This document shows positions 3,675-40,857 of a DNA stretch of 64,000 nucleotides, one piece after another (position 1 is the first letter of the stretch; each line of letters begins with the position of its first letter). A program made the translations under genes and the position numbers. The DNA lies in assembly GCF_017875835.1 (NCBI RefSeq), contig NZ_JAGING010000001.1:1116001-1180000 (forward strand), in the 5' to 3' direction. This stretch comes from Psychrobacter sp. PL19 (GTDB lineage: Bacteria; Pseudomonadota; Gammaproteobacteria; Pseudomonadales; Moraxellaceae). A model generated the notes under the pieces. It did no database searches, was not told the origin of the DNA, and worked only from the letters and a program-made list of their open reading frames with translations.

Positions 3675-3852
3675 ACTGATTTTAGGTTTGGTTGGATAAA
3701 TTAAAGCGATTTTAGATTAAATTAATTATAACGATACAAATCGTATCAAAAATACTGATATTATAGATAATATTGCTAGGTGCAAGGCTTAAACGATCCA
3801 GTCGAATATAATGGTAATCTAAGGGATCGATAATATAAGGGACGAATAGTGT

Positions 3853-24013: not shown

Positions 24014-24650
24014 AAGAGTCCTTATAGCGCTAAAATCTACCTAGTAGTTATTTATCAGCATGGTATAAAGGTTTGTACTTAGTTACAGGTAGGTTATTGT
24101 AAACGGTGGTGCTGTTCTGATGAACAGCCATAAAGCGAGTGAGTATTCTATCGTTAAGTAGACTATTTTAATGTTTTATTCATTAACTTTAACGCTAGCT
24201 GTTGATGCTGATTTTGTGTCATCTAGCTTTAAATATCTCAATAATCAATTACAAATAGTACTCAAGGAAAAGGGTGGTTAGGAGTGAGGCGAGTAGGCCG
24301 AAGAATAGCGGGTAACAATGAAATAATAAAATTTAAGTTAACGAATAAGTAAAATTCGATTTAAATAGCAGAAGGATGAGCGTAACAAAGCCGTTTTAGA
24401 AATATTTTGAAATAATTATTTAAAATCAGGCAGTTACGGATAATAATGATAGGTTAGAGTAAGTTTGAGTATCATAAAGTCACAAATAATGCCTATACTG
24501 TTAACAGTTAATGCATGAATACTTGCTATAATTATTCATAAGTTAATAAGTCGTTATACTCAATCAAGACGGTAACAAGACAGTAAAGAGAAATATAACA
24601 ATAGATTCAAATTTTCCTAAGAAGAACAGCTTAACAGAGAGGTATGAGAT
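24014..24650. other. Intergenic region between nadR and the PspC gene
   Basis: This is 637 bp of mostly AT-rich sequence between divergent genes. No convincing gene, terminator or repeat is seen. A TATAAT-like -10 lies near 24527, but no good -35 accompanies it. Confidence 0.5.
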
Positions 24651-24863
24651 TTGGCTAAATTAGCAAAATTACATCGCTCGCAGAATAATCGCATGGTAGC
24701 GGGTGTGATGGGTGGTATCGCAGAATATGTAGGCTGGTCACCGATGTGGGTGCGAATATTATTCGTGGTCATCTCGTCGCTAAGCGCTGCGATGCCTGGT
24801 ATTCTTATTTATATTATTTTATGGGTCATCATGCCAAATGCCTCAGACCAGTCACATGAATAA
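24651..24863 (+). CDS. PspC-domain small membrane protein
   Basis: A 70-residue protein with the PspC pattern: HRSQNNRMVAGVMGGIAEYVGWSPMWVRILF, then a long hydrophobic stretch (about residues 30-63) ending WVIMPN. PspC proteins sense envelope stress or regulate phage-shock responses, but stand-alone copies like this are of uncertain function. The start is the TTG at 24651: an ATG at 24644 runs into a stop after four codons, while GAGAGG lies 8 bases before the TTG. No pspA or pspB neighbours are present. Confidence 0.85.
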   Translation: MAKLAKLHRSQNNRMVAGVMGGIAEYVGWSPMWVRILFVVISSLSAAMPGILIYIILWVIMPNASDQSHE

Positions 24864-24964
24864 GCAATGAATAAGCAATAGTTTGATAGAGTATCTGACT
24901 ACTAATAAATTCCAAAAATAAAAAGCCTGAATAATCAGGATACCCCAGATATACCTTTCCTCCT

Positions 24965-24997
24965 GCCCAGATGGTAATCCGTCTGGGTATTTTTTTA
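24965..24997 (+). terminator. Intrinsic terminator downstream of the PspC gene
   Basis: The stem CCCAGA / TCTGGG with a 10-base loop is followed by TATTTTTTT. A smaller hairpin (CCTGA / TCAGG) lies just upstream. Confidence 0.75.
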
Positions 24998-25059
24998 CTC
25001 TAATCACTAGAATCTGAGCCTTAGATTTTAATCCCTAGATTCTAGGTTTTATCGATATC

Positions 25060-25197
25060 TATAGTCAATGAAAAGTAATATCGAGACATAACCTACTGCT
25101 GGCATACGTTTTTCTTGCTTGCTGTGGCTACGCAGACAGAGGCTGCAAAAAGCTTATACCAGCAGTACCGTCGCGTTTTTAAAGTATTTTAACTATA
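25060..25197 (+). repeat. 138-bp dispersed repeat, copy 1
   Basis: This copy begins TATAGTCAATG and ends TTTTAACTATA, so the tips form a short imperfect terminal inverted repeat (TATAGT / ACTATA). Inside is a second inverted pair, TACTGCTGG and CCAGCAGTA. Near-identical copies lie at 36197-36334 (reverse) and 38414-38551. Its size, inverted tips and lack of a coding frame suggest a non-autonomous MITE-like or REP-type element. Confidence 0.85.
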
Positions 25198-25383
25198 TCG
25201 CTAATCATTGTGAGTTTATTTCTAACGGCAACATAAATTTAGTTGCTGTAAATATAGATAAAATAGCCATTTTTTAGTAAGGTGAGCAGGTAAATAAATA
25301 TGCAGTCAGATAGGCTGTATGAACTTGAGCCTGAATTCCGATCAAGTGCTATCTAATAATACTCATTCCACAGTGATTTCCCT

Positions 25384-26409
25384 ATGACTTCCCAAGCTAT
25401 GAATTCTGAACCCATGACTTTTCAAGATTTAATCCTGACTCTACAAAACTACTGGGCTGCTAAGGGCTGCGTAATATTGCAACCTTACGATATGGAAGTG
25501 GGCGCAGGTACTTTTCATACGGCCACTTTTTTGCGCTCGCTGGGTCCTGAGCGCTGGAATGCGGCTTATGTTCAGCCATCACGTCGCCCAACTGATGGTC
25601 GTTATGGTAATAATCCTAACCGCTTGCAACACTACTATCAGTTCCAAGTGGTACTCAAGCCCAATCCGCCTGATATTCAAGAGCTGTATTTAGGCTCACT
25701 AAAGGCTATTGGTATTGATCCATTGGTGCATGATGTACGCTTCGTTGAAGACAATTGGGAGTCACCTACGCTAGGTGCGTGGGGTCTGGGTTGGGAGATT
25801 TGGCTGAATGGTATGGAAGTTACCCAGTTTACCTACTTTCAACAAGTGGGCGGTATCGAGTGCTTTCCCGTAACTGGCGAAATTACTTACGGCCTTGAGC
25901 GTCTAGCCATGTATGTGCAAGGCGTCGATAGTGTCTATGACCTAGTGTGGGCAGATGGCGAATTTGGCCGTGTGACTTATGGCGATGTGTTTCATCAAAA
26001 TGAAGTAGAGCAGTCCACCTATAACTTTGAGCATGCTGATGTGCCGAAGATGGGCGAATTGTTTGACTTCTACGAGCAGCAAGCGGATAAGTTGGTTGAT
26101 GCTGGACTACCCTTGCCAGCCTATGAGATGGTGCTAAAAGCCTCACATGCCTTTAATTTACTCGATGCTCGCGGCGCGATTTCGGTCACTGAGCGTCAGC
26201 GCTTTATTTTACGAGTCCGTACCTTGTCGCGTAAGGTTGCTTTTGGTTATGTTGAAGCGCGGGCAAAATTAGGCTTCCCGTTAGCAGATGAAGCGCATCG
26301 TCAAGCGGCCTTAGATAAGTATTTGCCTAAAGAAGCGGGTGCTGATATTAATAAAGACGAGCAAGCTGCCAAAAATAAACCTGCTAAAAACAACAATAAT
26401 AATAAATAG
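25384..26409 (+). CDS. glyQ: Glycine--tRNA ligase alpha subunit
   Basis: A 341-residue alpha subunit of the bacterial alpha2-beta2 glycyl-tRNA synthetase. The N-terminus [18 protein letters not shown], the [13 protein letters not shown] segment, [14 protein letters not shown] and [11 protein letters not shown] are characteristic of the catalytic core. It ends with a Lys/Asn-rich low-complexity tail (about 30 residues) not found in most homologues. It overlaps no gene but is only 9 bp before glyS, so the two are co-transcribed. None of the ATGs at 25384, 25402 and 25414 has a good ribosome site; the first is kept. Confidence 0.96.
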
Positions 26410-26418
26410 GCGCATTTC

Positions 26419-28512
26419 ATGACTACCATCTTATTTGAACTGGGGTGTGAAGAGCTGCCTCCAAAGAGCCTAAAAAATCTACGTGATGCGCTACAAGCGA
26501 GCGTCACTGAACAGTTGGGTGAGGCTGATATTCGCTTTGATAGCATGAAAGCTTTTGCTGCGCCGCGTCGTCTAGCGCTACAAATTCAGGGCATTAGTGA
26601 TAAGCAGCCAGATCGTAGCGAGCAAAAACGTGGCCCTGCAATCAAAGCAGCTTTCGATGCCGAAGGTAATCCTAGTCGTGCCGCAATGGGTTTTGCTAAA
26701 GGCTTGGGTATCGAGCCGCGTGAGCTGATTACTATTAACACTGACAAAGGCGACTACATCGGCTACGAGCAAACTGTGCATGGTAAGGCGACCACCGAGC
26801 TGTTGCCTACTATTTTTCAAATAGCCCTTGATAATCTACCGATTGCTAAGCGCATGCGTTCCGGTTCGAGCCGAGATGAGTTTGTGCGTCCTGTGCAATG
26901 GGTAGTATTGATGCAAGATGACACAGTTATTGATGGCATGATTCAAGGTCATCAGACCGGCCAGCAGACCCGTGGACATCGTTTCCATAGTCCGGACTAC
27001 CATACCATTAAGCATGCTGACGATTATGAGCAGTTGTTAGATGGTTTAAAAGTAGTGGCTGATTTTGATAAGCGCCAAGCGTTTATTAACAATCAAGTTC
27101 AGGCGCTAGCAGATGAAGTCAATGCCAATGCGATTGTACCGCCAGCATTGCTAGATGAAGTTACCGCTTTGGTTGATTTTCCGATTGCTCTACGAGCAAG
27201 TTTTGAGCCGCGTTTTTTACGAGTGCCGCAAGAGGCGCTGATTTCAACCATGCAAGCGGATCAAAAGTATTTTTGCCTCACTGATAAAGATGGCAAGCTC
27301 CAGCCTTATTTTATTTTTATTACCAATATTGAGTCAAAAGATCCCAATCAGATCATCGAGGGCAATGAAAAGGTCGTCCGTCCTCGCTTGGCGGATGCTG
27401 AATTCTTCTTCTTACAAGATCAAAAGCAGCCGTTATCAGCGTTAACCGAAAGCTTAAAAACCCGCGTGTTCCAAGATCAACTGGGCACTATTTGGGAAAA
27501 GTCAGAGCGCATCGCTAAGCTGGCCGCTTTTATCGCAGCATTGTTACAACAGCAAGACCAGCAGATTGATATAAATGAGACCACCCGTGCTGCAATGCTA
27601 GCTAAAGCGGACTTGGCCAGCTCATTGGTTGGTGAGTACCCCGAATTGCAGGGTATTGCGGGCACGTATTATGCGCGTCTTAATGGCGAGCCTGAAGCCG
27701 TTGCTGCAAGTTTAGAAGAGCAGTATCTACCCAAGTTCAGTGGTGATCTACTGCCGCAAACACCTATCGGTATATGCCTGGCGCTAGCAGATCGCTTGGA
27801 CACACTAGTCGGTATCTTTGCGATAGATCAAGCACCTACCGGTTCAAAAGATCCTTTTAGCCTACGTCGTTCAGCGATTGGCATCTTACGTATCTTGATT
27901 GAAAAACAACTACCGATTAACCTAGTAGCTTTAGTTGAGCAGGCAATAAACAACTATGTTAGCGCTGAAGATGGCAAAATCCATAATATGGGCGATACCT
28001 TCACTAAGGTAATGACCTTCTTACACTCACGCTATCGGGCGATGTATACTGAGCAAGGGGTCAGTGTCGATACTATTCAGGCCGTACAAGCGATTAATCC
28101 GCATATGCCGCTTGATTTTGATCAGCGTATTCGTGCGGTGAAAATGTTTAGTGAGCTGCCGCAAGCTTCAATGCTCGCTGATTCTAACAAGCGCGTGGCC
28201 AACATTTTAGCTAAATCAGAAGTGGCTGTTGCTGATAGCGTCGATGAGCTATTACTGTCCGAGTCTGCCGAACAAGTGTTGTATAGCAGCGTTCGTCAAG
28301 CGCAAACGGTTGTAACACCCCTACTTGAACAGGCTGACTACACTCAAGTGCTGCAAACCTTGGCCAGCTTAGATGAGCCGTTGACACAATTTTTTGATAG
28401 TGTGATGGTCAATAGCGACGATATGGCCTTGAAAAATAACCGCTTAGCGTTATTAAAGCAGGTACGCGCTTTGTTTCTAACGGTCGCTGATATTAGCGAA
28501 TTACAGCTATAA
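26419..28512 (+). CDS. glyS: Glycine--tRNA ligase beta subunit
   Basis: A 697-residue beta subunit that supports tRNA recognition and aminoacylation with GlyQ. The N-terminus ILFELGCEELPPKSL, the KRMRSGSSRDEFVRPVQWVV segment, STMQADQKYFCL, NEKVVRPRLADAEFFF and GIAGTYYARLNGEPEAVA are all classic for GlyS. Its HD-like middle and C-terminal anticodon-binding domain are intact, and length is as expected. An intrinsic terminator follows, closing the glyQS operon. Confidence 0.97.
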   Translation: MTTILFELGCEELPPKSLKNLRDALQASVTEQLGEADIRFDSMKAFAAPRRLALQIQGISDKQPDRSEQKRGPAIKAAFDAEGNPSRAAMGFAKGLGIEPRELITINTDKGDYIGYEQTVHGKATTELLPTIFQIALDNLPIAKRMRSGSSRDEFVRPVQWVVLMQDDTVIDGMIQGHQTGQQTRGHRFHSPDYHTIKHADDYEQLLDGLKVVADFDKRQAFINNQVQALADEVNANAIVPPALLDEVTALVDFPIALRASFEPRFLRVPQEALISTMQADQKYFCLTDKDGKLQPYFIFITNIESKDPNQIIEGNEKVVRPRLADAEFFFLQDQKQPLSALTESLKTRVFQDQLGTIWEKSERIAKLAAFIAALLQQQDQQIDINETTRAAMLAKADLASSLVGEYPELQGIAGTYYARLNGEPEAVAASLEEQYLPKFSGDLLPQTPIGICLALADRLDTLVGIFAIDQAPTGSKDPFSLRRSAIGILRILIEKQLPINLVALVEQAINNYVSAEDGKIHNMGDTFTKVMTFLHSRYRAMYTEQGVSVDTIQAVQAINPHMPLDFDQRIRAVKMFSELPQASMLADSNKRVANILAKSEVAVADSVDELLLSESAEQVLYSSVRQAQTVVTPLLEQADYTQVLQTLASLDEPLTQFFDSVMVNSDDMALKNNRLALLKQVRALFLTVADISELQL

Positions 28513-28550
28513 CTTTATTCTTATGAGTGAATCACTCTTACTTTAAGCAC

Positions 28551-28581
28551 AAAAAACTGGCTGTGCTAAGCCAGTTTTTTT
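28551..28581 (+). terminator. Intrinsic terminator of glyQS
   Basis: The stem AAAAAACTGGCT / AGCCAGTTTTTT with a 6-base loop and a T-run lies 38 bp after the glyS stop. Confidence 0.92.
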
Positions 28582-28751
28582 GTGTAATTATATTAAATAA
28601 TTACTAATATTTTATTAGCCTAGCAACCACTAAATAGCGCAATGATTGTGCTATAGGCGTGAATTACAGTAAACTTTATATTATATCCCTAGCTCATTAT
28701 TTATAACTTAGTAACCTCAGTTCACTCACCATTACTCGAAGGAGCACTGCC

Positions 28752-29138
28752 GTGTTTGCGATTATTATTATAATAATTATAATTTGGATCTCAATGTGGA
28801 TCTTTTATAAAGTTATGTACCCACGCGCCCCAAAAAGCATGATGCCCCAAAAAGGTGACGTGATCGAGCCGCGCAATTGTAATTTTTGTGGTAACAGCTT
28901 AGCTGAGTATCGTGGTGTTATCGAGACTGCCCCTACCGAGCTTAACAGCAGTATAAATAGTGACATTACTAATGATAGTGTTAGTGATACTACCAATGCC
29001 GTTAGCGATACTATTAATACTGCTAGCGACCTTGACAGCCCTATCAAGGACAGTAGCACTAAGGCTAACGGTGAGTTGTTTTTTTGCAACTACGAACATC
29101 AAGCTGATTTTCATGCCGGTAAAACTTACCAGTACTAG
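28752..29138 (+). CDS. Small membrane-anchored zinc-ribbon-like protein (PP0621-like)
   Basis: A 128-residue protein beginning with an Ile-rich membrane helix (about residues 2-18). A CNFCGN pair follows at about 43-46, then a Ser/Thr/Asp/Asn-rich linker (about 60-105), and a closing FFCNYEHQADFH segment. The order of membrane anchor, CxxC, then C-x3-H resembles the PP0621 family, whose function is unknown; the long linker here is extra. The start is a GTG with AAGGAGC 7 bases upstream. It is convergent with zapA, with only 19 bp between the stops. Confidence 0.65.
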   Translation: MFAIIIIIIIIWISMWIFYKVMYPRAPKSMMPQKGDVIEPRNCNFCGNSLAEYRGVIETAPTELNSSINSDITNDSVSDTTNAVSDTINTASDLDSPIKDSSTKANGELFFCNYEHQADFHAGKTYQY

Positions 29139-29157
29139 CGTTAAGTGGTCACTTGAC

Positions 29158-29622
29158 CTATAAAATAGACTGCGCGTCTTGCATTATTTTACTTAACAGA
29201 GCCTCTGACTGCTTACTTTCATTTTGATGAGTATCACTGGTCTTTTCATGAGCGCTAATTTTTTCATATAAGTTTAAGCAGCATAATACCAGCAGATTTT
29301 CTTGGCTTAAGTTTGGTGCTTCTCTTTTAATATCGAGAACAAAGTTATTAATGTAATACACGGCTGAACGTAATTCTTGTTCTTCATTAATCGGACAATA
29401 AATTTGATAGGTTATGCCAGCAATGGCAATATCTACTTTTTTCATTTGCGGTTCAGGGGTTTTAGTAGCTGGTGTGCTGCTACCTGTTGTTGCCTGTTCG
29501 ACGTTTATCTTATTGGGGGTGACATTTTGGGGCAGGGTGCGCTTAGTTTGATCCATGGGCGCCGCCGCTTTTTTGTTTTCAAGCGGTGAGTTTTGATCAG
29601 CGTTGCTATTGTTGTCAGTCAT
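29158..29622 (-). CDS. zapA: Cell division protein ZapA
   Basis: A 154-residue protein whose C-terminal hundred residues match ZapA: KKVDIAIAGITYQIYCPINEEQELRSA, then the AVYYINNFVLDIK and LSQENLLVLCCLNLYEKI helices that form its dimer and tetramer coiled coil. ZapA bundles FtsZ filaments at the division ring. The first 55 residues are a Pro/Thr/Asn-rich low-complexity extension absent from most ZapA proteins. AGGA lies upstream of the ATG. A coiled-coil gene 135 bp upstream on the same strand probably belongs with it. Confidence 0.9.
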   Translation of the reverse strand: MTDNNSNADQNSPLENKKAAAPMDQTKRTLPQNVTPNKINVEQATTGSSTPATKTPEPQMKKVDIAIAGITYQIYCPINEEQELRSAVYYINNFVLDIKREAPNLSQENLLVLCCLNLYEKISAHEKTSDTHQNESKQSEALLSKIMQDAQSIL

Positions 29623-29757
29623 AATAAGTCCTACAAAGTATCGTCATGAAGGTGAATAATCAATTAAGATAAATAATTAAAGCGCTAAAAGTATAAAATC
29701 ATTTTTTGAGAGGCAAGGGTGCTATTACTGTTTTGGCAAACCTTCGTCAATCGCGCA

Positions 29758-30240
29758 TCAGCTTTCTATTTGATCAATATGGGTTAATCGTTTTAACACC
29801 ACTTGCGTGCGCTCGGCTGCCAACTGATTTTTTTCTTGTAGGTCATGGTTTTGTTGTTTGATATCGCTATTTTGCTGCTTAATATTATTATTTTGTTGTT
29901 GTAGCTCATGGCCCTGCTGCTGAAGATTGTCATTATGTTGTTGTAGGGCACTGTTTTTTTGTCGCAAATCAGCCAGCTGTTTTTGTAACTTGTCTTGCTC
30001 TTCTCCAATCATATGATGCGCTTCGGCAAGGCTTTGATAGCGTTTATCGAGATCGCTCAACTGTTTTTTCGCGTTATCACGTTCTGTATGGCTGCTATCG
30101 AGCTTAGTATTAAGGACTGACAATTCTTTTGGATTGGTATTCGGTCGTTGTTTGATGCTGCTAAGTTCAGCGCTGACCAGCTGATGCTGCTTTTTGATGT
30201 CAAGTATCGTTTTTTCTAATAGTCTGAGTTGGTCATACAT
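29758..30240 (-). CDS. Coiled-coil protein next to zapA (TIGR02449-like)
   Basis: A 160-residue protein that is almost entirely coiled coil, with a Gln/Asn-rich central array (LQQQGHELQQQNNNIKQQ and similar heptads, about residues 100-140). The N-terminus LRLLEKTILDIKKQHQLV resembles the small TIGR02449 proteins that sit next to zapA in many gammaproteobacteria and are compared to ZapB. It is about twice as long as that family because of the repeated central section. A division-ring role is inferred from position only. Confidence 0.65.
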   Translation of the reverse strand: MYDQLRLLEKTILDIKKQHQLVSAELSSIKQRPNTNPKELSVLNTKLDSSHTERDNAKKQLSDLDKRYQSLAEAHHMIGEEQDKLQKQLADLRQKNSALQQHNDNLQQQGHELQQQNNNIKQQNSDIKQQNHDLQEKNQLAAERTQVVLKRLTHIDQIES

Positions 30241-30466
30241 AGTCAGTTTTTATCCTTAACCAGTGAGTGTGGATGAATTTTGGTCTATGCGTTTAATAAT
30301 GCCATAGGTGACCGCATAATATCTATATCAACAAAGTAATTGCACTTATTGTGCTTCTTTTTTTTACTTTTATTAGTTACAGCGCTGCGCACATTGTAGG
30401 GCGGTAACTATTACTAATTAATTGGCTCTAATCAATCATTGCTAATCAATCACTAGGATAACCGTT

Positions 30467-31120
30467 ATGAATGATAATATCTCTGGCTGGAACACGTGGG
30501 CCGAAGCGTTTGATGAATGGACTGATGTGTCTATCAGTGAGGTGCACGGCTTGATGACTGGCTTGATGACGGCTTGTGAGGCTCCTGATGAGCAAGGTTG
30601 GGCGAAGGTGCTGGAAGAACTCAGCTTTGCACCGTTACCGGAGCCGGCCTTGACGCTGCTGACCGAAGAGGCGGAAGATACCGTGTTTCAGCTCAAAGAT
30701 AAAGAGGATGCTTATTCCTTTATGCCACTGATACCTGACGATGAACATAACTTATACGAGCGTGTGATGGCTCTGAAACAGTGGGCTAACGGCTTTATGA
30801 CTGGCTTTGGTATTACTGATTGTGGTCTGAGTGCTGAAGAAAATGAGATGCTCATGGATTTAGCCAAAATTGGCGCTATCCGTCTGGAAGATGATGAGGA
30901 CTTTGAAGGTGGCGAAGAGTCTTATCTGTATATTTATGAGTTTGCGCGCATGGTCCCGGTCAGTTTTGCCACCCGTAAGCGTAAGCCTATTAAAGATTTA
31001 GCACTGATTTCAGGGCTAAAAATGGATGCAAAAACCACCAAAGAACGCCAAGCGGAAGGCCAGTTGTCAAAGCCCACGCCACCGGTGGTTGATGTGATGA
31101 ATCAAAATAACCCATCGTAA
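30467..31120 (+). CDS. UPF0149 family protein (YgfB-like)
   Basis: A 217-residue acidic protein of the UPF0149/YgfB type. SEVHGLMTGLMTACEAP near the start, the QWANGFMTGFGI motif (about 105-116) and the EDFEGGEESYLYIYEFARMVP segment are the family hallmarks. YgfB is linked to regulation of ampD-type genes in Pseudomonas and to ubiquinone gene neighbours in others. Its usual pepP-ubiH-ubiI partners are not next to it; a transposon-like unit begins 48 bp after its stop. AGGATAAC precedes the ATG. Confidence 0.9.
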   Translation: MNDNISGWNTWAEAFDEWTDVSISEVHGLMTGLMTACEAPDEQGWAKVLEELSFAPLPEPALTLLTEEAEDTVFQLKDKEDAYSFMPLIPDDEHNLYERVMALKQWANGFMTGFGITDCGLSAEENEMLMDLAKIGAIRLEDDEDFEGGEESYLYIYEFARMVPVSFATRKRKPIKDLALISGLKMDAKTTKERQAEGQLSKPTPPVVDVMNQNNPS

Positions 31121-31168
31121 GAATATGGTGCAAATTTAAAATGAGTATCAATGAGTTGAAAGAAAAGT

Positions 31169-31439
31169 GGTTTTACACTAAATTTGGAGTGTTCAAACAA
31201 TCTAACTAAAAAAAAGACACGCGATCTCCAATTTCTTTCACACTTGAATTGTCGAGAAACAAGTAAAGACAAGGAGGTGCGTGCACTTGAGTTTTGCCGT
31301 GAATTATATCAGCTGGTCGAATTGCCCGGAACTGCGGAGTTCTAAAAAGTGATGTGCACGTCCCGAAACTGGCAAACTGAAACCTTAAACAGTTTTGCAT
31401 TCCCTTATTTCATCTCACCCCAATATTTGACGGGGAACC
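31169..31439 (+). pseudogene. ISL3-family insertion sequence relic, left copy
   Basis: A 271-bp internally deleted IS. Its first 244 bp are about 90% identical to the right copy at 32865. It keeps a left inverted repeat, then a fragment of transposase (RALEFCRELYQLVEL) with an in-frame stop in the segment EF-stop-KVMCTSR. It jumps straight to a right inverted repeat (complement GGTTCCCCGTCAAATATTGG) with the C-terminal transposase part missing. It cannot make a transposase. Confidence 0.8.
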
Positions 31440-31731
31440 TTTTTGGTCGTATGATAAATGTAGAACGTTTCTCTACTCTATTAACGTGTGTTGTAAGCTT
31501 TATTACATAGGATTTGAGGAAGCACTCTATTTTATTGCCATTTTGTGCTTAGAGCCGTAAGGGCTTAGAGTTATGAGACTGATTCAATTTAGTGATATTA
31601 AAAAATAGAAATTAATATGTTTTTCCACATCTAATTCTTCAACCTTTTAAAGTTATTATCTTATGTTTAAACCTAAAATTGTAGGGTAAAAGTAAATTGT
31701 TGAGTATAGTATATTTGAAAGGAGTTTTATA

Positions 31732-32715
31732 ATGAATGGTCTTGGAGGATTGAATAAATCACCAAATGGAGTGATTCTAGGTTTAGTACAATTGCAATTA
31801 CCAATAACAAAAACGAAAGATGACTTGACTAAGCAAACCGAGAAAGTATGTGACATGGTTCGAAAAGCAAAACGGTTTATAGCACCCATTGATCTTGTCG
31901 TATTTCCAGAATATATGCTTCATGGACTTTCAATGGACATGAATGATGAGATCATGTGTGATATCGATGGACCTGAAGTGTCTGAGCTGAAAAAAGTTTG
32001 TAAGGAAAATGAAATTTGGGGATGTTTTTCAATAATGGAATATAACCCTAATGGAAATCCTTACAATACCGGATTAATTATAGATGATCAGGGCCAGATA
32101 AAATTAAACTGTCGAAAACTACATCCTTGGGTTCCTGTTGAACCATGGGAACCGGGTAATCTTGGCTTGCCTGTGTGTGACGGACCAAATGGAAGTAAAC
32201 TAGGGCTAGTTATTTGCCATGATGGGATGTTTCCAGAGGTTAGTCGCGAACTTGCATATAAAGGTGCAGATGTTATTTTACGTACAGCTGGTTATACGCC
32301 ACCCATTCGACATTCCTGGAAAATAACCAATCAAACAAACGCATTTTGCAACCTTGCATATACCGCGTCCGTTGCCATGTGTGGAAGTGATGGAACCAAT
32401 GATTCGATGGGAGACGCCATGATTGTTGGATTTGATGGTGTAACACTCGTAGAAGGTAGTAACCGCGCTGATGAAATAATTACTGGAGAAGTTAGACCTG
32501 ATTTGGTACTTGAGGCTCGGATCAACTGGGGAGTTGAAAACAACATCTACCAGTTGGGGCATCGAGGCTTTGTTGCCGTGGATGGCGGAGTAATGGACGC
32601 TCCATACACGTATATGGACGATTTGAGAAACGGAACATATAGTCTCCCTTGGGAAGATAAAATTAAGCATAAAGATGGGCAAGCTTATGGTTTTGATGCC
32701 CCTCGAAAAAAATAA
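31732..32715 (+). CDS. amiF: Formamidase (aliphatic amidase AmiF), acquired
   Basis: A 327-residue nitrilase-superfamily enzyme expected to hydrolyse formamide to formate and ammonia. The start NGLGGLNKSPNGVILGLVQL and the segments HGLSMDMN, ENEIWGCFSIMEYNPNG and RTAGYTPPIRHSW are those of AmiF formamidases from Bacillus and Helicobacter. The catalytic triad is visible as Glu in VFPEYMLHG, Lys in CRKLHPW and Cys in LVICHDG. It is full length. The ribosome site AAAGGAG, 7 bases before the ATG, AT-rich codons and flanking ISL3 relics point to horizontal transfer, perhaps from Bacillota (inference). Confidence 0.93.
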   Translation: MNGLGGLNKSPNGVILGLVQLQLPITKTKDDLTKQTEKVCDMVRKAKRFIAPIDLVVFPEYMLHGLSMDMNDEIMCDIDGPEVSELKKVCKENEIWGCFSIMEYNPNGNPYNTGLIIDDQGQIKLNCRKLHPWVPVEPWEPGNLGLPVCDGPNGSKLGLVICHDGMFPEVSRELAYKGADVILRTAGYTPPIRHSWKITNQTNAFCNLAYTASVAMCGSDGTNDSMGDAMIVGFDGVTLVEGSNRADEIITGEVRPDLVLEARINWGVENNIYQLGHRGFVAVDGGVMDAPYTYMDDLRNGTYSLPWEDKIKHKDGQAYGFDAPRKK

Positions 32716-32864
32716 AGTTAGAAATCATACAACCCAATTTATACTCTATACATGTAAGCACTTACTATGTCGACACTCGTGAACTGAACTTTAAATGGTA
32801 GACACTTTAAAAAAACGACCCATTTGTTTTTTCTGTTTTCAGAATTCGGTATACTAAATTTGGC

Positions 32865-33286
32865 GGTTCTACACTAAATTTGGAGTGTTCAAACAATTTA
32901 ACCAAAAAAAGACACGCAATCTCCAATTTCTTTCACACTTGAATTGTCGAGAAACAAGCAAAGACAAGGAGATGCGTGCACTTGAGTTTTGCCGTGAATT
33001 ATATCAGCTGGTCGAATTGGCCGGCATTGCGGAGTTCCAAAAAGTGATGTGCACGTCCCGAAGCTAGCAAACTGAAATCTTAAACAGTTTTGCATTCTCT
33101 TATTTCAACGGTTTTCTAGTAGGCATAAATAACCTGACAAAAGCAGTCAAACGGAATTCGTTCGGCTTTCAAACCTCACACGTGCACGCGCCAAAATACT
33201 ATTGACACACAAATACAAGAGTATTGGCGTTCATGTGGGTTAAGGTGAAAAATATTTCACCTCACCCCAACATTTGACGAAGAACT
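32865..33286 (+). pseudogene. ISL3-family insertion sequence relic with transposase fragment, right copy
   Basis: A 422-bp internally deleted IS in direct orientation with the left copy. One frame reads RALEFCRELYQLVELAGIAE, then a TAG stop at 33065, then QTEILNSFAFSYFNGFLVGI followed by NNLTKAVKRNSFGF. This is the typical ISL3 transposase C-terminus with its NG-x2-x-G-x-N and KR-x-x-FGF pattern. After a one-base frameshift it continues RARAKILLTHKYKSIGVHVG and stops, just before the right inverted repeat. The N-terminal two thirds of the transposase are missing. Confidence 0.85.
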
Positions 33287-33452
33287 AGAAAAGTTGAATG
33301 TGAATCATATGGCTCATGAGTGTTTATACTTATTTATATTATCTTGTGAGTAGCGGGGTTAGTGGTTAGCCTGATGATTCGAAAGTATGATATGACTCAT
33401 AGCGTTAGACGAATATAAAATATCAATACCAAATAAAAAGGAGAATAAAATA

Positions 33453-33935
33453 ATGTTAACGGATACTGATAAACAACATTTGCGCCGCTGTATTGAGCTG
33501 GCTACTGAAGCATTAGATGCCGGTGATGAGCCGTTTGGTAGTGTGTTGGTCGATAGCGATGGCACCGTACTTAATGAAGATCGTAACCGCATTAACACGG
33601 TCGATGCAACCTATCATCCTGAGATTGCAGTCGCACGTTGGGCGGCAAAAAATATGACTCCAGAAGCGCGAGCGCGAGCGGTCGTTTATACCTCAGGTGA
33701 GCATTGTGCGATGTGCTCAGCGGCTCATGCTTGGGCAGGACTTGGCCGTATTGTTTATATCAGCTCCTCCAAACAGTTGGGCGAATGGATGGATGAGATG
33801 GGTGTAGAATCAACATCGCCAATTACATCGTTAGCCATTCAAGACGTGGCGCCGAATGTGCCAGTCGAAGGCCCGATCACAGGCTTAGACGAAGAGGTAA
33901 AAGAGTTGCAGCGACGGGCACAGCAAAAAGACTAA
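33453..33935 (+). CDS. Nucleoside deaminase family protein
   Basis: A 160-residue protein of the cytidine/guanine deaminase fold. The zinc site appears as HPEIAVARWAA (about residue 53; most relatives have H-A/G-E) and SGEHCAMCSAAHAW (about 83-95; usual PCxxC), with the catalytic Glu in HPE. The overall layout is closest to small guanine deaminases and nucleoside deaminases; the substrate is not certain. Codon and base use look host-like, in contrast to the amiF unit 160 bp upstream. AAGGAG precedes the ATG. It is followed 43 bp later by argE. Confidence 0.8.
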   Translation: MLTDTDKQHLRRCIELATEALDAGDEPFGSVLVDSDGTVLNEDRNRINTVDATYHPEIAVARWAAKNMTPEARARAVVYTSGEHCAMCSAAHAWAGLGRIVYISSSKQLGEWMDEMGVESTSPITSLAIQDVAPNVPVEGPITGLDEEVKELQRRAQQKD

Positions 33936-33978
33936 TAACACAAATCTCAATATCAATTTTATTTGATAAGGATGTTCA

Positions 33979-35199
33979 ATGGCTTTTAATAATAGTGACC
34001 ATCAGTCTCAACCTATTCCGTCTTATCCGCAGCAGAGTATTGATTGGCTCACACGCTTAATCGGCTTTGACACTGTCAGTCGACATTCAAACTTAGCTTT
34101 AATCAACGAGGTTAAGGCTTATTGTGAACAGTTGGGATTGATAGTAACGCTGACTTTTAACGAGTTGCAAAACAAAGCCAATTTATTTGCCACTGTACCA
34201 GCAGGTAAAAATGCTGAAATAGTTGATGGCGGCTTAGTACTTTCAGGCCATAGCGATGTCGTGCCGGTTGATGGTCAAGATTGGACGTCTGAGCCGTTTA
34301 CCGCCACTATTCGTGGTTCGCGCTTATATGGGCGCGGGGCTTGCGATATGAAAGGCTTCATTGCTTGCGCGTTAACTCTATTGCCTGATGCGGCACAGCG
34401 GTCTAAAAATAGTCAGCTGCGTCGTCCGCTACACTTGGCATTGTCATTTGATGAAGAAGTGGGCTGTTTAGGGGCGCCTTTATTACTGGCCGATTTAGCT
34501 GCCCGTGGTATTACTCCTGAATATTGTATCGTTGGTGAACCCACCAATATGACCGTGGTGGTAGCGCATAAAGGCATCGCTATATATCGCTGCCGCGTAC
34601 ATGGTAAATCAGCTCATTCATCCTTGACGGCACAAGGCGTCAATGCGATTAGTTATGCCAGCCGTTTGGTCGGTTACGTCGATACCTTAGCTGAGCAATT
34701 AAGCGGCCGTGATGATAACGACCCCTTGTTCGATGTGCCTTATTCAACCTTGTCAGTGGGTACCATACAGGGTGGCACGGCGACCAATATCGTACCTAAT
34801 CTATGCGAGTTCACCTTTGACTATCGTAATCTGCCGCACATGACTCAAGCAGATATCTTGGCGCCGATCCAAGCTAAAGCCGCTGAGCTAACCGCGCAGA
34901 TGCAAGTGCGTTCGCCAGAGACCCGCATTGAGATCCTACAAGAAGTAGGGGTACCCGCGATGACGGATAATGACAATGACGAGCTCCAAAGCTTGATAGC
35001 TGCTTTGGTTGAAGATGACAAACGTCATAAAGTTGCTTATGCCACCGAAGGCGGGCAATTCACCAATGCGGGTATTCCAACGATTATCTGCGGACCCGGC
35101 AGTATCGAACAAGCGCACAAAGCAGATGAGTACGTTGAGCTTGATGAGATTGAGCGCTGTGACAGCTTCTTACAGCGCTTACTACAAAGCTGCTGCTAG
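33979..35199 (+). CDS. argE: Acetylornithine deacetylase
   Basis: A 406-residue M20-family zinc peptidase. The metal-binding segments SGHSDVVPVDGQDW (about residues 87-100), GRGACDMKGFIA, SFDEEVGCLGAP and IVGEPTN are present in order and match ArgE, which removes the acetyl group from N-acetylornithine in arginine synthesis. The last His ligand lies in PGSIEQAHKADEYV. A succinyl-diaminopimelate desuccinylase is excluded by the ArgE-type TAIGFDTVSR-like start (here RLIGFDTVSRHSN). AAGG lies 8 bases before the ATG. A terminator-like hairpin follows at 35322. Confidence 0.93.
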   Translation: MAFNNSDHQSQPIPSYPQQSIDWLTRLIGFDTVSRHSNLALINEVKAYCEQLGLIVTLTFNELQNKANLFATVPAGKNAEIVDGGLVLSGHSDVVPVDGQDWTSEPFTATIRGSRLYGRGACDMKGFIACALTLLPDAAQRSKNSQLRRPLHLALSFDEEVGCLGAPLLLADLAARGITPEYCIVGEPTNMTVVVAHKGIAIYRCRVHGKSAHSSLTAQGVNAISYASRLVGYVDTLAEQLSGRDDNDPLFDVPYSTLSVGTIQGGTATNIVPNLCEFTFDYRNLPHMTQADILAPIQAKAAELTAQMQVRSPETRIEILQEVGVPAMTDNDNDELQSLIAALVEDDKRHKVAYATEGGQFTNAGIPTIICGPGSIEQAHKADEYVELDEIERCDSFLQRLLQSCC

Positions 35200-35321
35200 T
35201 TAACTTTTGCTACTGTTGTTCATAGTCGATTATATACGCTGGTTCCTCTCTGCTAAATGACAACTGAAATAAACTTAATGTTGAGTTGGCCAGATTATAT
35301 GGTTACAGAGCTATTAATTAT

Positions 35322-35356
35322 AAAGTACACCGTCTTAATGGCGGTGTTTACTTTTT
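35322..35356 (+). terminator. Intrinsic terminator after argE
   Basis: An interrupted stem (AAAGTA CACCG with CGGTG TTTACTTT) with a 9-base loop and a TTTTT run, about 120 bp past the argE stop. Confidence 0.7.
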
Positions 35357-35424
35357 ACCGTCAAATTGTCTAGAGTCGCAGGATTCTAAACTGAATTTTT
35401 TAAATAATAAGGTAGGGTTGGTTG

Positions 35425-36165
35425 ATGTCGTGGCATCTGTTGGCGGTATTTTTTGCTAGTACGTTTTTTATCTCAGCTACCCCTGGCCCAAATATGCTAT
35501 TGGCATTTCAATATGGACTGAATTATGGTGTCAAGCGGACGCTATGGACCTTAGCAGGGTTGAGTCTTGGACTATTTATTCTGCTACTTTCTACTCTTCT
35601 AGGACTAGATGTTATTAGTCGGCAGTCGCCATGGTTACTGACTGTTATCAAGTCTATTGGCGCGTTATATTTGATATATTTAGGCGTTTCATCATGGCGT
35701 GATAATACTACTGATAATAGCTTGATGAATACTGCCAGCGCCATGAGCGCAGAGGTTGACGCCGAGCTGATATCGAGCTCTATAATGCCGGATAATAAAC
35801 CCGCATCTTTACCACATTCACCGCCTAGAGCGGCAGCCAAAGCGATTCCTAGTGATTGGCTGCTATTTAGAACGGGTATTTGGGTATCGTTGTCCAATCC
35901 CAAAGCGATTTTATTTTTTGCGGCTTTTTTCCCTAAATTTATCAATTTCAGTGCGCCATTATGGCCACAATACATTATGTTGACCCTAGGTCTATTTTTG
36001 AGTGAAACCATCTGGCAGCTTATTTATACTCTTGGTGGTAAAAAGCTTGCGGGCTGGCTGGATGTTAGTGACCGCTTAGCTTGGCTCAACCGGGGTTGCG
36101 GGGTAATATTCATCTTAATTGCCGCTGCCTTGTTGGCTGATGTTGTGAGCAGCTTTATGGCTTGA
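35425..36165 (+). CDS. LysE/RhtB family amino acid exporter
   Basis: A 246-residue membrane protein with six helices. The SATPGPNMLLAFQYGLNYGVKR segment near the N-terminus (about residues 16-37) and WVSLSNPKAILFFAAFFPKFI in the middle are the LysE/RhtB signatures of exporters for lysine, homoserine, threonine or similar amino acids. A hydrophilic insert of about 45 residues (Asp/Ser/Pro-rich, about 91-140) separates the third and fourth helices. The ATG at 35425 is chosen over a TTG one codon earlier. It is convergent with miaB, separated by a repeat copy and a terminator. Confidence 0.88.
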   Translation: MSWHLLAVFFASTFFISATPGPNMLLAFQYGLNYGVKRTLWTLAGLSLGLFILLLSTLLGLDVISRQSPWLLTVIKSIGALYLIYLGVSSWRDNTTDNSLMNTASAMSAEVDAELISSSIMPDNKPASLPHSPPRAAAKAIPSDWLLFRTGIWVSLSNPKAILFFAAFFPKFINFSAPLWPQYIMLTLGLFLSETIWQLIYTLGGKKLAGWLDVSDRLAWLNRGCGVIFILIAAALLADVVSSFMA

Positions 36166-36196
36166 TTGGTTATTTGAGCATTTAAACATTGCTTAA

Positions 36197-36334
36197 TATA
36201 GTTAAAATACCTTAAAAACGCGACGGTACTGCTGGTATGAGCTTTTTGCAGCCTCTGTCTGCGTAGGCACAGCAAGCAATAAAGACTTACGCCAGCAGTA
36301 AATTATGTATCGATATTACTTTTCATTGACTATA
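36197..36334 (-). repeat. 138-bp dispersed repeat, copy 2
   Basis: A copy in reverse orientation of the elements at 25060 and 38414, the same length to the base. Between the lysE-type gene and miaB it starts TATAGTTAAAATAC and ends TTTTCATTGACTATA. It carries a few substitutions in the middle compared with the other two. Confidence 0.85.
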
Positions 36335-36344
36335 GCTAAAATAA

Positions 36345-36378
36345 AAGCTGCTAATAGCAAAGTATTAGCAGCTTTTTT
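36345..36378. terminator. Bidirectional terminator between the LysE-type gene and miaB
   Basis: The stem GCTGCTAATA / TATTAGCAGC with a 6-base loop is flanked by AAAA on one side and TTTTTT on the other. Confidence 0.9.
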
Positions 36379-36428
36379 ATGTTTTATGATTTTAATGACA
36401 ATGTACGCTCAATTGAGTTTGGGCTTAC

Positions 36429-37916
36429 TTAAGCCAATATAGATTCAAGCTCACCTTTGACCATATGCGGACTGACGAAATCAGTGATACGGACGCTGAC
36501 AATTTTACCCAGTAGCTCATCCATCTGTTCAGGATTATAAGGGAACATCACCGTACGGGTATTATCTGCGGTGCCTATTAGGCAGTCTGGATGACGATTG
36601 GCCACTTGCTCGACCAATACGCGGGCGGTCGTACCAACCATGTCATGCGATTTTTGCAGAGTAGAATCTATAATTACCTTTTGGAACTCAGCCAAACGGG
36701 CTTTTTTGGTCTTAAAGCTGACATCATCCGGTAGCTCTGCTGCTGGTGTGCCTGGACGCTTGGAATAAATAAAGCTATAAGAATGGTCGAAGTTTAAGTC
36801 TTTTGCCAATTGCAAGGTTTGCTGAAAGTCTTCATCGGTCTCACCTGGGAAGCCAATAATGAAATCGCTTGATAAATGAATATCTGGACGAATGGCTTTT
36901 AGTTTATCAATTTGAGTGATATAAACGTCAATAGTATGGTTGCGTTTCATCGCGGCCAATATGGCATTTGAGCCACTTTGTACGGGTAGATGTAGGTGCG
37001 ATACCAGCTGTGGTAACTGTGCATAAGCATCGATGATATCATCAGTGAATTCTAGCGGATGGCTGGTGGTATAACGAATACGCTCGATACCATCCACGTG
37101 CGATACATAATGTAGTAGCTCGGCAAAGCGGCAAATACTGTTGTCATCTTTTTCGCCGCGATAACCATTGACGTTTTGACCCAATAGGTTGATTTCACGT
37201 ACACCTTGAGCCGCTAAGCTGTCAATCTCGGCCAACACGTCATCAAGCGGGCGCGAGAGTTCTTCGCCGCGTGTATAAGGAACCACGCAGAACGAACAAT
37301 ACTTTGAGCAACCTTCCATGATAGAGACAAAGGCTTTAAAACCATCGACTTTTGGCTCGGGCAAAAAATCGAACTTTTCAATACTAGGGAAGGAGATATC
37401 AATCGTACCAATTCGGTTCTTTGGTGAAATGTGGCGCTGCTGGTTTGATTGATCATACAGCTCTGGTAGGCGATGCAAGGTTTGTGGGCCGAACACCATA
37501 TCGACATAAGGCGCACGCTTTTGGATATTATCGCCTTCTTGCGAGGCCACGCAGCCACCAACCCCAATCACTAGGTCTGGACGTTTTTCTTTTAGTTTGC
37601 GCCAGCGGCCTAATTCTGAGAATACTTTTTCTTGTGCTTTTTCGCGGATAGAACAGGTATTCATCAACAATACATCTGCTTCATCTATATTATGGGTCAC
37701 TTGCATACCATGCGAGTCGCCAAGGACGTCGAGCATTTTGTCAGAGTCATAGACATTCATCTGACAGCCTTGGGTGGCGATAAAGACTTTTTTTATTGCA
37801 GCGGCATTGACCTGCTCTGAAACCGGCGCTTCGATGGTAGCGACATTTACTTGCTCTGAAACTGGCGCTTCGAGTGCAGGGTCATTGATGCGAGGATTAA
37901 ATACAGAAACACTCAT
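36429..37916 (-). CDS. miaB: tRNA-2-methylthio-N6-dimethylallyladenosine synthase MiaB
   Basis: A 495-residue radical SAM methylthiotransferase that modifies A37 of tRNAs reading UNN codons. An N-terminal UPF0004 domain ([13 protein letters not shown], with a second Cys in [11 protein letters not shown] and a third in [11 protein letters not shown]) binds one 4Fe-4S cluster. The radical SAM motif is [16 protein letters not shown], followed by a C-terminal TRAM domain ending VKGELESIL. The first 30 residues contain a tandem 14-residue duplication (EAPVSEQVN units). The ATG at 37916 is chosen over an upstream ATG at 37979 because conservation begins later and the extra residues are not MiaB-like. 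Two repeat copies flank the gene in opposite orientation. Confidence 0.94.
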
Positions 37917-38718
37917 AAGCGAAAGTCCATGATTAGCAAACAAAATATAGCGGCGGCAAGCCATTAATGGGTGGCGCATTTTATCATAACCATGGACTAA
38001 TGTGAAAAGTAACGCGACATGATTAGATATAAGTATAAAAAATAATTATAATACTATCAATTGCTTATGAAATTTTATACTAATTTAGATGGTAACGGTC
38101 ATTAAAGGAGCATTCTACCTAAGTTTTAATGGTTCCGTCGATAAGGTGAAAGATGTCTGAGTAACCCTAGTAATTGATCCGAGTATCACCCTTGTATTGC
38201 AGGTCGCTGTCCTGTTTATTTACAAATGGTAAGGGAGCTGGTTGAAAGTCAAAAAGATATAGTATGATGAGTATTGCGTTGCTGGCGGGATGTATTTTTT
38301 GACCTTCGAACGCCGCTGATCGTTATGGCCAGACTCATTATCCTAGATACAGAGAATAGCTGTGCTTACCATGTTGGTGCTTTTGTTTAACAATTTTACT
38401 TAGCACGTCTTAACATAGTCAATGAAAAGTAATATCGACACATAACCTACTGCTGGCATACGTTTTTCTTGCTTGCTGTGCCTACGCAGACAGAGGCTGC
38501 AAAAAGCCTATACCAGCAGTACCGTCGCGTTTTTAAGGTATTTTAATGATAGCTGTTTCAAAGACTGAGCCTCCGAGTTAAAAATACTGATCTTAAGATA
38601 CAGTATTGTGCCCTGATGTTTAAATACTGCATTCTTAAAATACTTTATTATGAAAATTTCAGTACCAAAATAAAAAGTCAAATATTAAATAACCATTAAG
38701 ATCATAAAGAGAGTAAGT
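37917..38718. other. Intergenic region between miaB and slt
   Basis: About 800 bp between divergent genes, holding one 138-bp repeat (38414-38551). No gene is seen; the rest is AT-rich and presumably includes both promoters. Confidence 0.6.
38414..38551 (+). repeat. 138-bp dispersed repeat, copy 3
   Basis: Same orientation as copy 1 at 25060 and near-identical to it (for example CGACACATAACC against CGAGACATAACC), but with its tips slightly decayed (CATAGTC at one end, AATGATA at the other). With copy 2 it forms an inverted pair about 2.2 kb apart around miaB. Confidence 0.85.
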
Positions 38719-40857
38719 ATGACCAAGCATCGCGTTGCCAAGCCCATTCATGACAATACTAATGACAACCTTGTGGTACCCAATGGTCAAACCAGTCATA
38801 ATTCTAGCCGATTTAATATTGACTCACTGCGAGTGGGCACGCTTAGTTTGGCAACAGCAATGAGCGCGCTAGTGCTATCACAAGTGGCCTGTGCCGATCC
38901 GGCTCCTTATGATCCGGCTCTTTATGTTGGTAGCTATGATCAGCAGGACAGTAGTATCAACTCTTTTAGTGCCGCAGCGCAGGCAGCAAATCGTGGTGAT
39001 ATCAGCGCGTTGTATAACTATGAGCAGTTGATGAGTGGTGGTCTGTTTGCTATGTATCCTACTTATTGGCGTATGAATTTAGATTTGAATGCGCAAAGCT
39101 CGGCGGCCGTGTCACAATTTGTACGCCAATATCCCAATACTGTTATGGCAGAAAAGTTGGTGGCTGACTTTGCTGAGACTAAAGCTGCATCAGGTGATTA
39201 TGCTTCCGTACGGCAGGTGGCTAATTTGATTACCAACGGTGATCGCAGTGAGCGCTGTGCGATTGGGCTGGGCTTTAATAATGGCGGCGACACCATGCGT
39301 GCCTTGGCAGAGAAATCAGATGTTTGGCTGACTACCTTAAAGCAGCCGGCGCTGTGTGATCAGCTAGCAACTGAGATGAATAATAACGTGTTGATCAGTA
39401 ATCAAGATCGCATGGCGCGTCTTAAGCGCATGCTGCGTAAAGGCAAAACTGGCGACATTATGGCGCTATCATCACGGCTTGGCACCCCGATTCCCTATTC
39501 AGCGTTGAGTGAAATCCAGCTGAACCCGAGCTCGTTTTTTAGCCGCTTTGGTATGCAACCTCAAAGCCAAACCAATCAGTATCTATATCTATATGCTATT
39601 GGACGTATCGCGGATAAATCCTATCGTGAAGCCGCGCTCCAGCTAGACTTTGATATTAAGCAAGACAATCAGCGTTCAGCCCGCTTATTGACCGATGATA
39701 CGCGCCGTTATGCTTATCGTATTCTTGGCGTTCAGCGGATGAGTCATACCACCGATGATGGCTTTGACTCTGAGGCCGTTGACTGGTTTCGTAGCAGTCT
39801 AGATGATGACTTTAATTATGAAGAGGCCGAAGACTATGCCAAAGCGGCTATTCGCTTTAGTCGTTGGGATGATGTGGTTGAGGCCATTTCACGTATGGAG
39901 GCAGAAACTCAAAAATCCAGCCAATGGCAGTACTGGCTAGCACGCGCCTATGAGCAATCAAACGATCGTAGCAAGCGTAATACCGCTAAAAAAATGTACC
40001 AGCATCTGGCCAAAAGCAACGATTATTATGGCCTAATGGCAAAAGATAAAGTGGGTCAGCGTTTTGATGTTAGTCGTTTAGGCGGCAGTAACTTACCAAA
40101 CGTTAGCAACGCTGACCGTGCTCGTGCCATGCAGGATCCGAACTTTGCTCGCGCTTTTGCCTTATATAACGCCGATGCTAGCCGTGCTTATGCCAACCGT
40201 GAATGGAACTGGGCGGTCAAGGTGGCACGTGATAATCGTGATGACAACCTAATTATTGCTGCCGCCCGACAAGCACATGATATGGGTTGGCTTGATCGTG
40301 CGGTCTATGCTGCTGATAATACTGATAGAGCCAGCAGTTTGGCCTTATCATATCCTATGCCGCACCAAGATGCTGTCGTACGGCATAGCCGGTCAGCAGG
40401 TATTGATCCAGCATGGGCTTATGGCATTATGCGTCAAGAAAGTCGCTTCGTGAGCTCAGCGCGCTCCAACGTTGGCGCCAGTGGTTTGATGCAAATCATG
40501 CCTGACACGGCAAAATATATTGCTCGTAATTTAGGCGAATCTTATAGTGCTAGCAATGCGAATAGCGGCGATACCAATATTCGCTATGGTACCTGGTATA
40601 TGAGTGATATCTTGGGAAAGCTAAACCGTCAGCCGGTACTTGCCACTGCTGGTTATAATGCTGGCCCTAATAATGCTAAGCGCTGGCAGCCTACTTATGG
40701 CTCACTGGCTGCTGATCAGTATGTCGAATCAATTGCTTATCCTGAGACCCGTGATTACGTCAAGCACGTGATGGAAAATGCCACTATTTATAGTAGCTTA
40801 CTCGGTAGCCCCCAACCTATTAGCCAGCGCATGGGCACAATTCCTGCAGCGTTTTAA
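38719..40857 (+). CDS. slt: Soluble lytic murein transglycosylase (Slt-type)
   Basis: A 712-residue periplasmic lytic transglycosylase that cleaves peptidoglycan to 1,6-anhydro-muropeptides. A long N-terminal region with a hydrophobic stretch ending VACADPA (about residue 60) looks like a signal peptide with a long n-region. A helical superhelix domain (about 80-540) is followed by the catalytic GH23 domain: GIMRQESRF with the catalytic Glu, GASGLMQIMP, and TAGYNAGPNNAKRW. Length fits Slt70 family members. Its products feed the ampD-type recycling pathway encoded at 48.7 kb. GAGAG lies before the ATG. Confidence 0.92.
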   Translation: MTKHRVAKPIHDNTNDNLVVPNGQTSHNSSRFNIDSLRVGTLSLATAMSALVLSQVACADPAPYDPALYVGSYDQQDSSINSFSAAAQAANRGDISALYNYEQLMSGGLFAMYPTYWRMNLDLNAQSSAAVSQFVRQYPNTVMAEKLVADFAETKAASGDYASVRQVANLITNGDRSERCAIGLGFNNGGDTMRALAEKSDVWLTTLKQPALCDQLATEMNNNVLISNQDRMARLKRMLRKGKTGDIMALSSRLGTPIPYSALSEIQLNPSSFFSRFGMQPQSQTNQYLYLYAIGRIADKSYREAALQLDFDIKQDNQRSARLLTDDTRRYAYRILGVQRMSHTTDDGFDSEAVDWFRSSLDDDFNYEEAEDYAKAAIRFSRWDDVVEAISRMEAETQKSSQWQYWLARAYEQSNDRSKRNTAKKMYQHLAKSNDYYGLMAKDKVGQRFDVSRLGGSNLPNVSNADRARAMQDPNFARAFALYNADASRAYANREWNWAVKVARDNRDDNLIIAAARQAHDMGWLDRAVYAADNTDRASSLALSYPMPHQDAVVRHSRSAGIDPAWAYGIMRQESRFVSSARSNVGASGLMQIMPDTAKYIARNLGESYSASNANSGDTNIRYGTWYMSDILGKLNRQPVLATAGYNAGPNNAKRWQPTYGSLAADQYVESIAYPETRDYVKHVMENATIYSSLLGSPQPISQRMGTIPAAF

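Follow-up and report, generated by a model that had tools for sequence, protein, structure and literature searches.

The window, the whole 64,000-nt stretch of Psychrobacter DNA that was analysed, carries between ygfB and a nucleoside-deaminase-like gene an intact formamidase gene, amiF, which is flanked by two direct, internally deleted copies of an ISL3-family insertion sequence, referred to below as relic 1 and relic 2. The features of this region, with positions given for the window, are as follows.

30467–31120, plus strand: ygfB (UPF0149), flanking gene (PF03695)
31161–31168, no strand: left copy of the target duplication AGAAAAGT, from the sequence; AGCAAAGT at the orthologous place in P. 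urativorans
31169–31439, plus strand: relic 1, an ISL3 internal-deletion derivative with both ends, without a further internal stretch corresponding to about 33108–33254 of relic 2
31300–31304, plus strand: TGAAT in relic 1, junction of the common internal deletion of ~955 bp, where the two-part matches to intact elements meet
31427–31455, plus strand: predicted weak promoter-like sequence TTGACG-17-TATGAT (10/12) directed towards amiF, with its first hexamer inside the right end of relic 1
31440–31731, plus strand: sequence separating relic 1 from amiF, a large part of which is absent in P. urativorans, with chance-level plasmid matches
31732–32715, plus strand: amiF, formamidase, 327 aa, intact (NF009803, 533.7 bits, cut-off 406, residues 1–326)
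32780–32864, plus strand: IS3-family element of Planococcus type, left end, interrupted by relic 2 (82% over 84 bp, NZ_CP025123.1)
32865–33286, plus strand: relic 2, an ISL3 internal-deletion derivative of 422 bp with both ends, from alignment to intact elements
32963–33178, plus strand: C-terminal ISL3 transposase remnant with one stop (PF01610 positions 162–233 of 240, 45.7 bits, cut-off 23)
32995–32999, plus strand: TGAAT in relic 2, junction of the common internal deletion of ~955 bp, where the two-part matches to intact elements meet
33287–33294, no strand: right copy of the target duplication AGAAAAGT, from the sequence; AAAAAAGT at the orthologous place in P. urativorans
33453–33935, plus strand: nucleoside-deaminase-like flanking gene (PF14437/PF00383)

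A previous reading of the sequence alone (the sequence-only reading) had described direct 244-bp copies on either side of an intact amiF, both ending in ISL3-like repeats, and this description was confirmed. The repeat finder resolved the direct copies (31169–31412 and 32865–33107) into two segments, one of 46 bp (93% identity) and one of 204 bp (95%), with one indel between them, and over all aligned element columns relics 1 and 2 share 251/270 bases (93%). Both ends of each relic, including the right-hand ends at 31407–31439 and 33254–33286, align to intact 1.38-kb elements, as is expected of ISL3-family derivatives. As judged by comparison with the two closest elements that were fully read (G464 and G591), the relics correspond to such a 1.38-kb element minus ~955 bp of its transposase gene. 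G591, which is intact, encodes an ISL3 transposase (NF033550, 350 bits, cut-off 180), and all organism-named relatives of this protein among the matches listed (at least 120) belong to Bacillota. Intact relatives of the element lie in Bacilli, the class that includes Thalassobacillus, where 11 of 398 sampled genomes gave matches (E≤1e-6); further matches to the ISL3 element were found in 37 of 261 genomes within one family of that class (E≤1e-12).

The earlier statement that neither relic encodes a transposase holds in so far as neither retains a full one, but relic 2 keeps the PF01610 remnant, which is interrupted by one stop. The match above the cut-off came from the whole-genome search; when 27 residues of relic 2 were compared with PF01610 the E value was 0.025, under the cut-off. 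The relic open reading frame gave a weak and unrelated match only in Pfam.

ISL3 transposases generate 8-bp target duplications. A perfect 8/8 repeat, AGAAAAGT, lies immediately outside the relic pair on both sides, just where the sequence-only reading had placed an 8-bp repeat. Among 15 distinct related elements with both ends readable, nine (three of them in near-homopolymer T runs) are bordered by a perfect 8-bp duplication, one by a 7/8 match and five by less; the 30 loci analysed gave 16 rows, 10 of them perfect, with two rows representing one place, hence 9/15. The octamer outside the pair and the duplications of these relatives agree with the assignment to the ISL3 family. Taken singly, the relics are not bordered by duplications, the flanks being AGAAAAGT and TTTTTGGT for relic 1 and AATTTGGC and AGAAAAGT for relic 2 (2/8 in each case). 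Random pairs of 8-mers within 28–36 kb of the window were identical in 53 of 1,996,274 cases, and at a spacing of 2126 bp identical 8-mers occurred at 2 of 61,860 places, one of which is the AGAAAAGT pair itself. Since random 8-mers so rarely agree and the flanks of the single relics match at 2/8 positions only, the duplication belongs to the relic pair. An outer duplication without a duplication around either single copy is the mark of a composite transposon, and with the ISL3 identity of the relics it supports, as the best reading, the earlier proposal that the 2.1-kb unit moved as one piece. The usual companion of this arrangement, at least one copy that encodes a transposase, is absent.

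The same final order, with direct repeats and an outer duplication only, would also be produced if one ISL3 derivative had been inserted first, thereby generating the 8-bp duplication, and had later received another copy together with amiF by recombination with a circle that bore both. The 93% likeness of the relics would suit recombination. However, such stepwise assembly requires a resident relic, and no further copy was found in the genome of the window (E≤1), while the 103 Psychrobacter genomes other than this one and that of P. urativorans ACAM311 gave just four short weak matches of 24–34 bases (E≤0.01). Assembly at the site thus appears unlikely, and insertion of the complete unit is preferred.

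Of 105 Psychrobacter genomes searched, two encode the amiF protein (E≤1e-30), that of the window and that of P. urativorans ACAM311 (G103), and vertical conservation of amiF beside ygfB across the genus, which would have spoken against mobility, was therefore not observed. When the unit was used to search the wider family, 3/299 genomes gave matches; in the third of these, G887, the match covers 152 bp of a different amidase-like gene. In ACAM311, the unit occupies the same site between ygfB and the deaminase gene and has the same left junction, and its right end reads ...GAAAAACC. The octamers of ACAM311, AGCAAAGT and AAAAAAGT, each differ from AGAAAAGT by one base, and the other adverse case considered beforehand, the same arrangement without an 8-bp repeat, was likewise not encountered there. 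Relic 2 is nearly gone in ACAM311 and relic 1 has a deletion of its own; both carriers agree at the outer junctions and in the DNA to the right of relic 1. Genome G102, apparently P. urativorans R10.10B (PMC5833320), does not include the unit, and strains called P. urativorans thus seem to differ in this respect.

A clean empty site with one AGAAAAGT, which the sequence-only reading had suggested looking for downstream of ygfB, was not found in the 105 Psychrobacter genomes. A search with the joined flanks gave matches in 7/105 genomes (E≤0.01), and those in genomes besides the carriers (5/103) were short and weak, 28–36 bases in length. The gene order is conserved in genomes G090 and G092, which lack the unit, and their spacer is too diverged for the octamer to be read; the octamer of G090 aligned with it, TGAACAGT, matches at 6/8 positions in a poor alignment. 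The same ygfB-deaminase spacer of G092 includes an unrelated 325-bp element (L042, positions 4877–5201) that begins with GGGCGTGTTGAACATT and has 16-bp inverted ends (15/16), which indicates that the spacer tolerates insertions.

The deletion junction at TGAAT is common to relic 1, relic 2 and the relic in P. urativorans. A PF01610 profile search of the 105 Psychrobacter genomes (E≤1e-10) returned relic 2 as the sole match. Given that all relics share one deletion and that the other 104 Psychrobacter genomes have no ISL3 transposase detectable at this threshold, it is likely that the transposase was supplied from elsewhere, as the sequence-only reading had suggested. In the wider family, 25/239 genomes matched PF01610, one match being the relic itself, and the presence of ISL3 transposases in other genera makes supply in trans from related genera possible. 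No match was obtained when plasmids were searched with relic 2 (E≤1) or with the intact G591 element (E≤1e-10), a phage search with relic 1 gave two short matches at E 0.9, and the deletion-junction pattern had 0 matches in viral contigs.

The two relics of the window agree at 190/204 positions, whereas relic 1 and the corresponding relic of P. urativorans agree at 172/204. This difference suggests gene conversion between the relics as the best explanation, the alternative being unequal rates, and gene conversion leaves room for the deletion having spread after arrival. The ends could accordingly have belonged to intact elements that moved themselves, one of which later underwent the internal deletion that was then copied to the other. 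The genus today, in which the relic is the one ISL3 transposase match (E≤1e-10), agrees with such an order of events. However, the junction is also found in P. urativorans, so that the exchange between the species discussed below would have to be younger than the deletion as well as the conversion. A late deletion is therefore considered doubtful, and movement of copies that already had the deletion is preferred.

The origin of the unit was approached via a protein tree of AmiF with 44 rows, from which the out-of-frame Thalassobacillus copy L081 and the 296-aa row P0025 were left out. Both Psychrobacter AmiF proteins fall within an 18-row clade (support 100/100). Names are carried by 8/16 of its rows outside Psychrobacter, and all eight are Bacillota (Salinicoccus, Virgibacillus, Thalassobacillus, Bacillus freudenreichii, Salibacterium and Marinococcus), in a tree that is rooted at the midpoint and has three of these eight on a long branch. 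The best named relatives of amiF are 82–85% identical, and GC3, which is 43.0 ± 3.6 in 18 genes nearby, is 30.8 in amiF. In Thalassobacillus devorans MSP14, a single scaffold carries amiF twice (L047 and L081), and the second copy is not open throughout.

The IS3-family end that directly precedes relic 2 matches NZ_CP025123.1, a plasmid of Planococcus sp. MB-3u-03 from Alaska, where the matched end is followed by a pair of open reading frames for an IS3-family transposase (NF033516, 264.7 bits, cut-off 160). As this left end runs directly up to relic 2, the latter seems to have been inserted into a Planococcus-type IS3-family element. On the Planococcus plasmid, the IS3 end is adjoined by a gene (L163, positions 3023–4015) with no annotation beyond transposase. 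This gene matches PF01610 with 86.9 bits, which places both element families side by side there. A donor genome with both parts of the unit was not found, amiF (E≤1e-100) being present in 0/261 genomes of one Bacillota family with a query that did match in the Psychrobacter search. Salibacterium qingdaonense has relatives of both amiF and the ISL3 element, though diverged. A plasmid search with the whole unit gave 131 records, and all 40 among the matches listed lie within or around amiF, at 64–67% DNA identity; with 31436–31740 as the query, plasmid matches were at chance level, the best among the matches listed having E 0.9.

The position of amiF in a Bacillota clade and the Planococcus-type IS3 end beside relic 2 together make it likely that the unit was assembled in Bacillota and transposed as one piece. 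The segment 31161–33294 is thus read as amiF between two direct, internally deleted ISL3 copies that entered as one composite transposon, assembled in Planococcus-like Bacillota and probably mobilised in trans by an ISL3 transposase, a reading to which we assign a probability of roughly 0.7.

The two carriers are not nearest kin. The ygfB gene of the window is 87.4% and 86.5% identical to those of G090 and G092, both without the unit, and 80.2% identical to that of P. urativorans, which in turn is closest to the gene of G016 (87.3%, the best among 35 loci compared), also without the unit. Between the carriers, dS is 0.24 for amiF versus 1.06–3.2 for 17 neighbouring genes. These genes come from a comparison of open reading frames of at least 120 aa, in which the 19 besides amiF gave 0.67–3.2 in 18 cases and saturation in one; the frame with dS 0.67 was set aside since it is antisense to another gene and probably not real. 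With the unit removed, the spacer is 81% identical between the carriers, as compared with 56% to G090 and 54% to G092. Nine other intergenic stretches are 50–80% identical between the carriers, the 80% one being directly upstream of ygfB. The similarity of the spacer to that of P. urativorans could be due in part to constraint. The stretch upstream of ygfB (30241–30466) is unusually conserved, with 80% identity to P. urativorans and 85–86% to G090/G092, and has no Rfam match at the gathering score; Rfam gave 0 matches at gathering scores over 24000–40000 as a whole.

Had the unit been inserted before the window's species and P. urativorans separated, and been lost from the others, the shared site and the decayed duplications in both carriers would be explained. 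Such vertical inheritance is improbable given the low dS of amiF relative to its neighbours and the absence of the unit from nearer relatives of both. That the unit was inserted twice independently, once in each species and both times at this site, would suit carriers that are not nearest kin. Such a coincidence is however highly improbable, as the flanking spacer is far more similar between the carriers than to the closer kin of the window's species, and the carriers share the outer junctions as well as the DNA to the right of relic 1. The distant kinship of the carriers, the low dS of amiF and the 81% identity of the spacer instead indicate that there was one insertion and that the occupied locus was then probably exchanged between lineages. 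Recombination is inferred as the vehicle of this exchange; no breakpoint was seen in the flanking genes, ygfB being 74–83% identical to that of P. urativorans in all six sixths of its length.

The cargo gene encodes a full-length AmiF by the NF009803 equivalog model. The catalytic residues of AmiF, which we take to be the Glu-Lys-Cys triad E60, K129 and C162, are identical in all 17 proteins aligned. Enzymes of this family are known to convert formamide to formate and ammonia. For amiF of the two carriers, dN is 0.016 and dN/dS ~0.07, which points to selection acting on the cargo and, together with the conserved triad, to a working enzyme, as far as can be judged from sequence. The AmiF structures PDB 5g3o and 2dyu match the product of the unit's gene over its full length, and it is an ordinary member of AmiF that is unusual in its setting only.

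The promoter-like site at the right end of relic 1 retains 29/31 bases in P. urativorans. It is 277 bases from the amiF start codon in the window and ~65 in P. urativorans through a deletion. The chance of an equally good site in the region is ~15%, and the scan found 8 promoter-like sites versus 7.2 in shuffled sequences, a number not above chance; a hybrid promoter at the end of relic 1 is therefore only a suggestion.

Under the preferred reading, an ISL3 element would have lost ~955 bp of its transposase gene at the TGAAT repeat, and two copies of the resulting 422-bp derivative, one within an IS3-family element, would have come to flank amiF. The left end of copy 1 and the right end of copy 2 would then have been used jointly, probably by an ISL3 transposase acting in trans, so that AGAAAAGT was duplicated in the spacer that separates ygfB from the deaminase gene. 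Later, the locus with the unit in it would have been exchanged between Psychrobacter lineages, probably by recombination, and would now be present in the window's species and P. urativorans ACAM311, where the relics decay and amiF is presumably kept by selection. The likely origin in Bacillota and the probable exchange within Psychrobacter go beyond what the sequence-only reading had proposed. Tentatively, a composite with ISL3 ends that were already transposase-dead may have carried one amide-catabolism gene from Bacillota to Proteobacteria on a borrowed transposase, provided that gene with a -35 box lying in one of its ends, and then passed between Psychrobacter species through homologous exchange of the occupied locus. 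The unit may be seen as a legible trace of the passage of a gene from Bacillota into Proteobacteria, in which duplication, ends and cargo are still recognisable in two species, and in which cargo apparently under purifying selection outlives its own vehicle.

In the literature searched, neither an ISL3 counterpart of TIME-COMP-like pairs nor a formamidase associated with a composite transposon was found. The classical IS-composite transposon likewise has two IS copies around a cargo and an outer target duplication, but in the unit neither copy encodes a transposase. Mobile insertion cassettes have one pair of ends around a passenger gene. The unit resembles the cassette that carries qnrD (PMC3913671) in being non-autonomous with IS-type ends and a passenger gene, and departs from it in having four ends, each flank being a two-ended copy. 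ISPpu12a, an ISL3 element with genes that are not needed for transposition, has its passengers within one element together with its own transposase (PMC4133298), whereas the cargo of the unit lies between two transposase-less copies.

The closest likeness is to the TIME-COMP structures treated in the same source (PMC4133298), in which pairs of transposase-less, Tn3-derived inverted-repeat miniature elements in the same or opposite orientation mobilise the intervening DNA as a composite. Like them, the unit has two transposase-less copies around a cargo. TIME-COMPs are described there with Tn3-family 38-bp ends and 5–6-bp duplications, whereas the ends of the unit are of ISL3 type, its duplication is 8 bp long, its cargo is one catabolic gene and its likely origin is in a different phylum; it thus works like a TIME-COMP but is not one. 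If the present reading is true, mobilisation by a pair of dead ends is not confined to Tn3-derived TIMEs: ISL3 ends can serve as well, and the DNA carried can be a metabolic gene instead of one for resistance.
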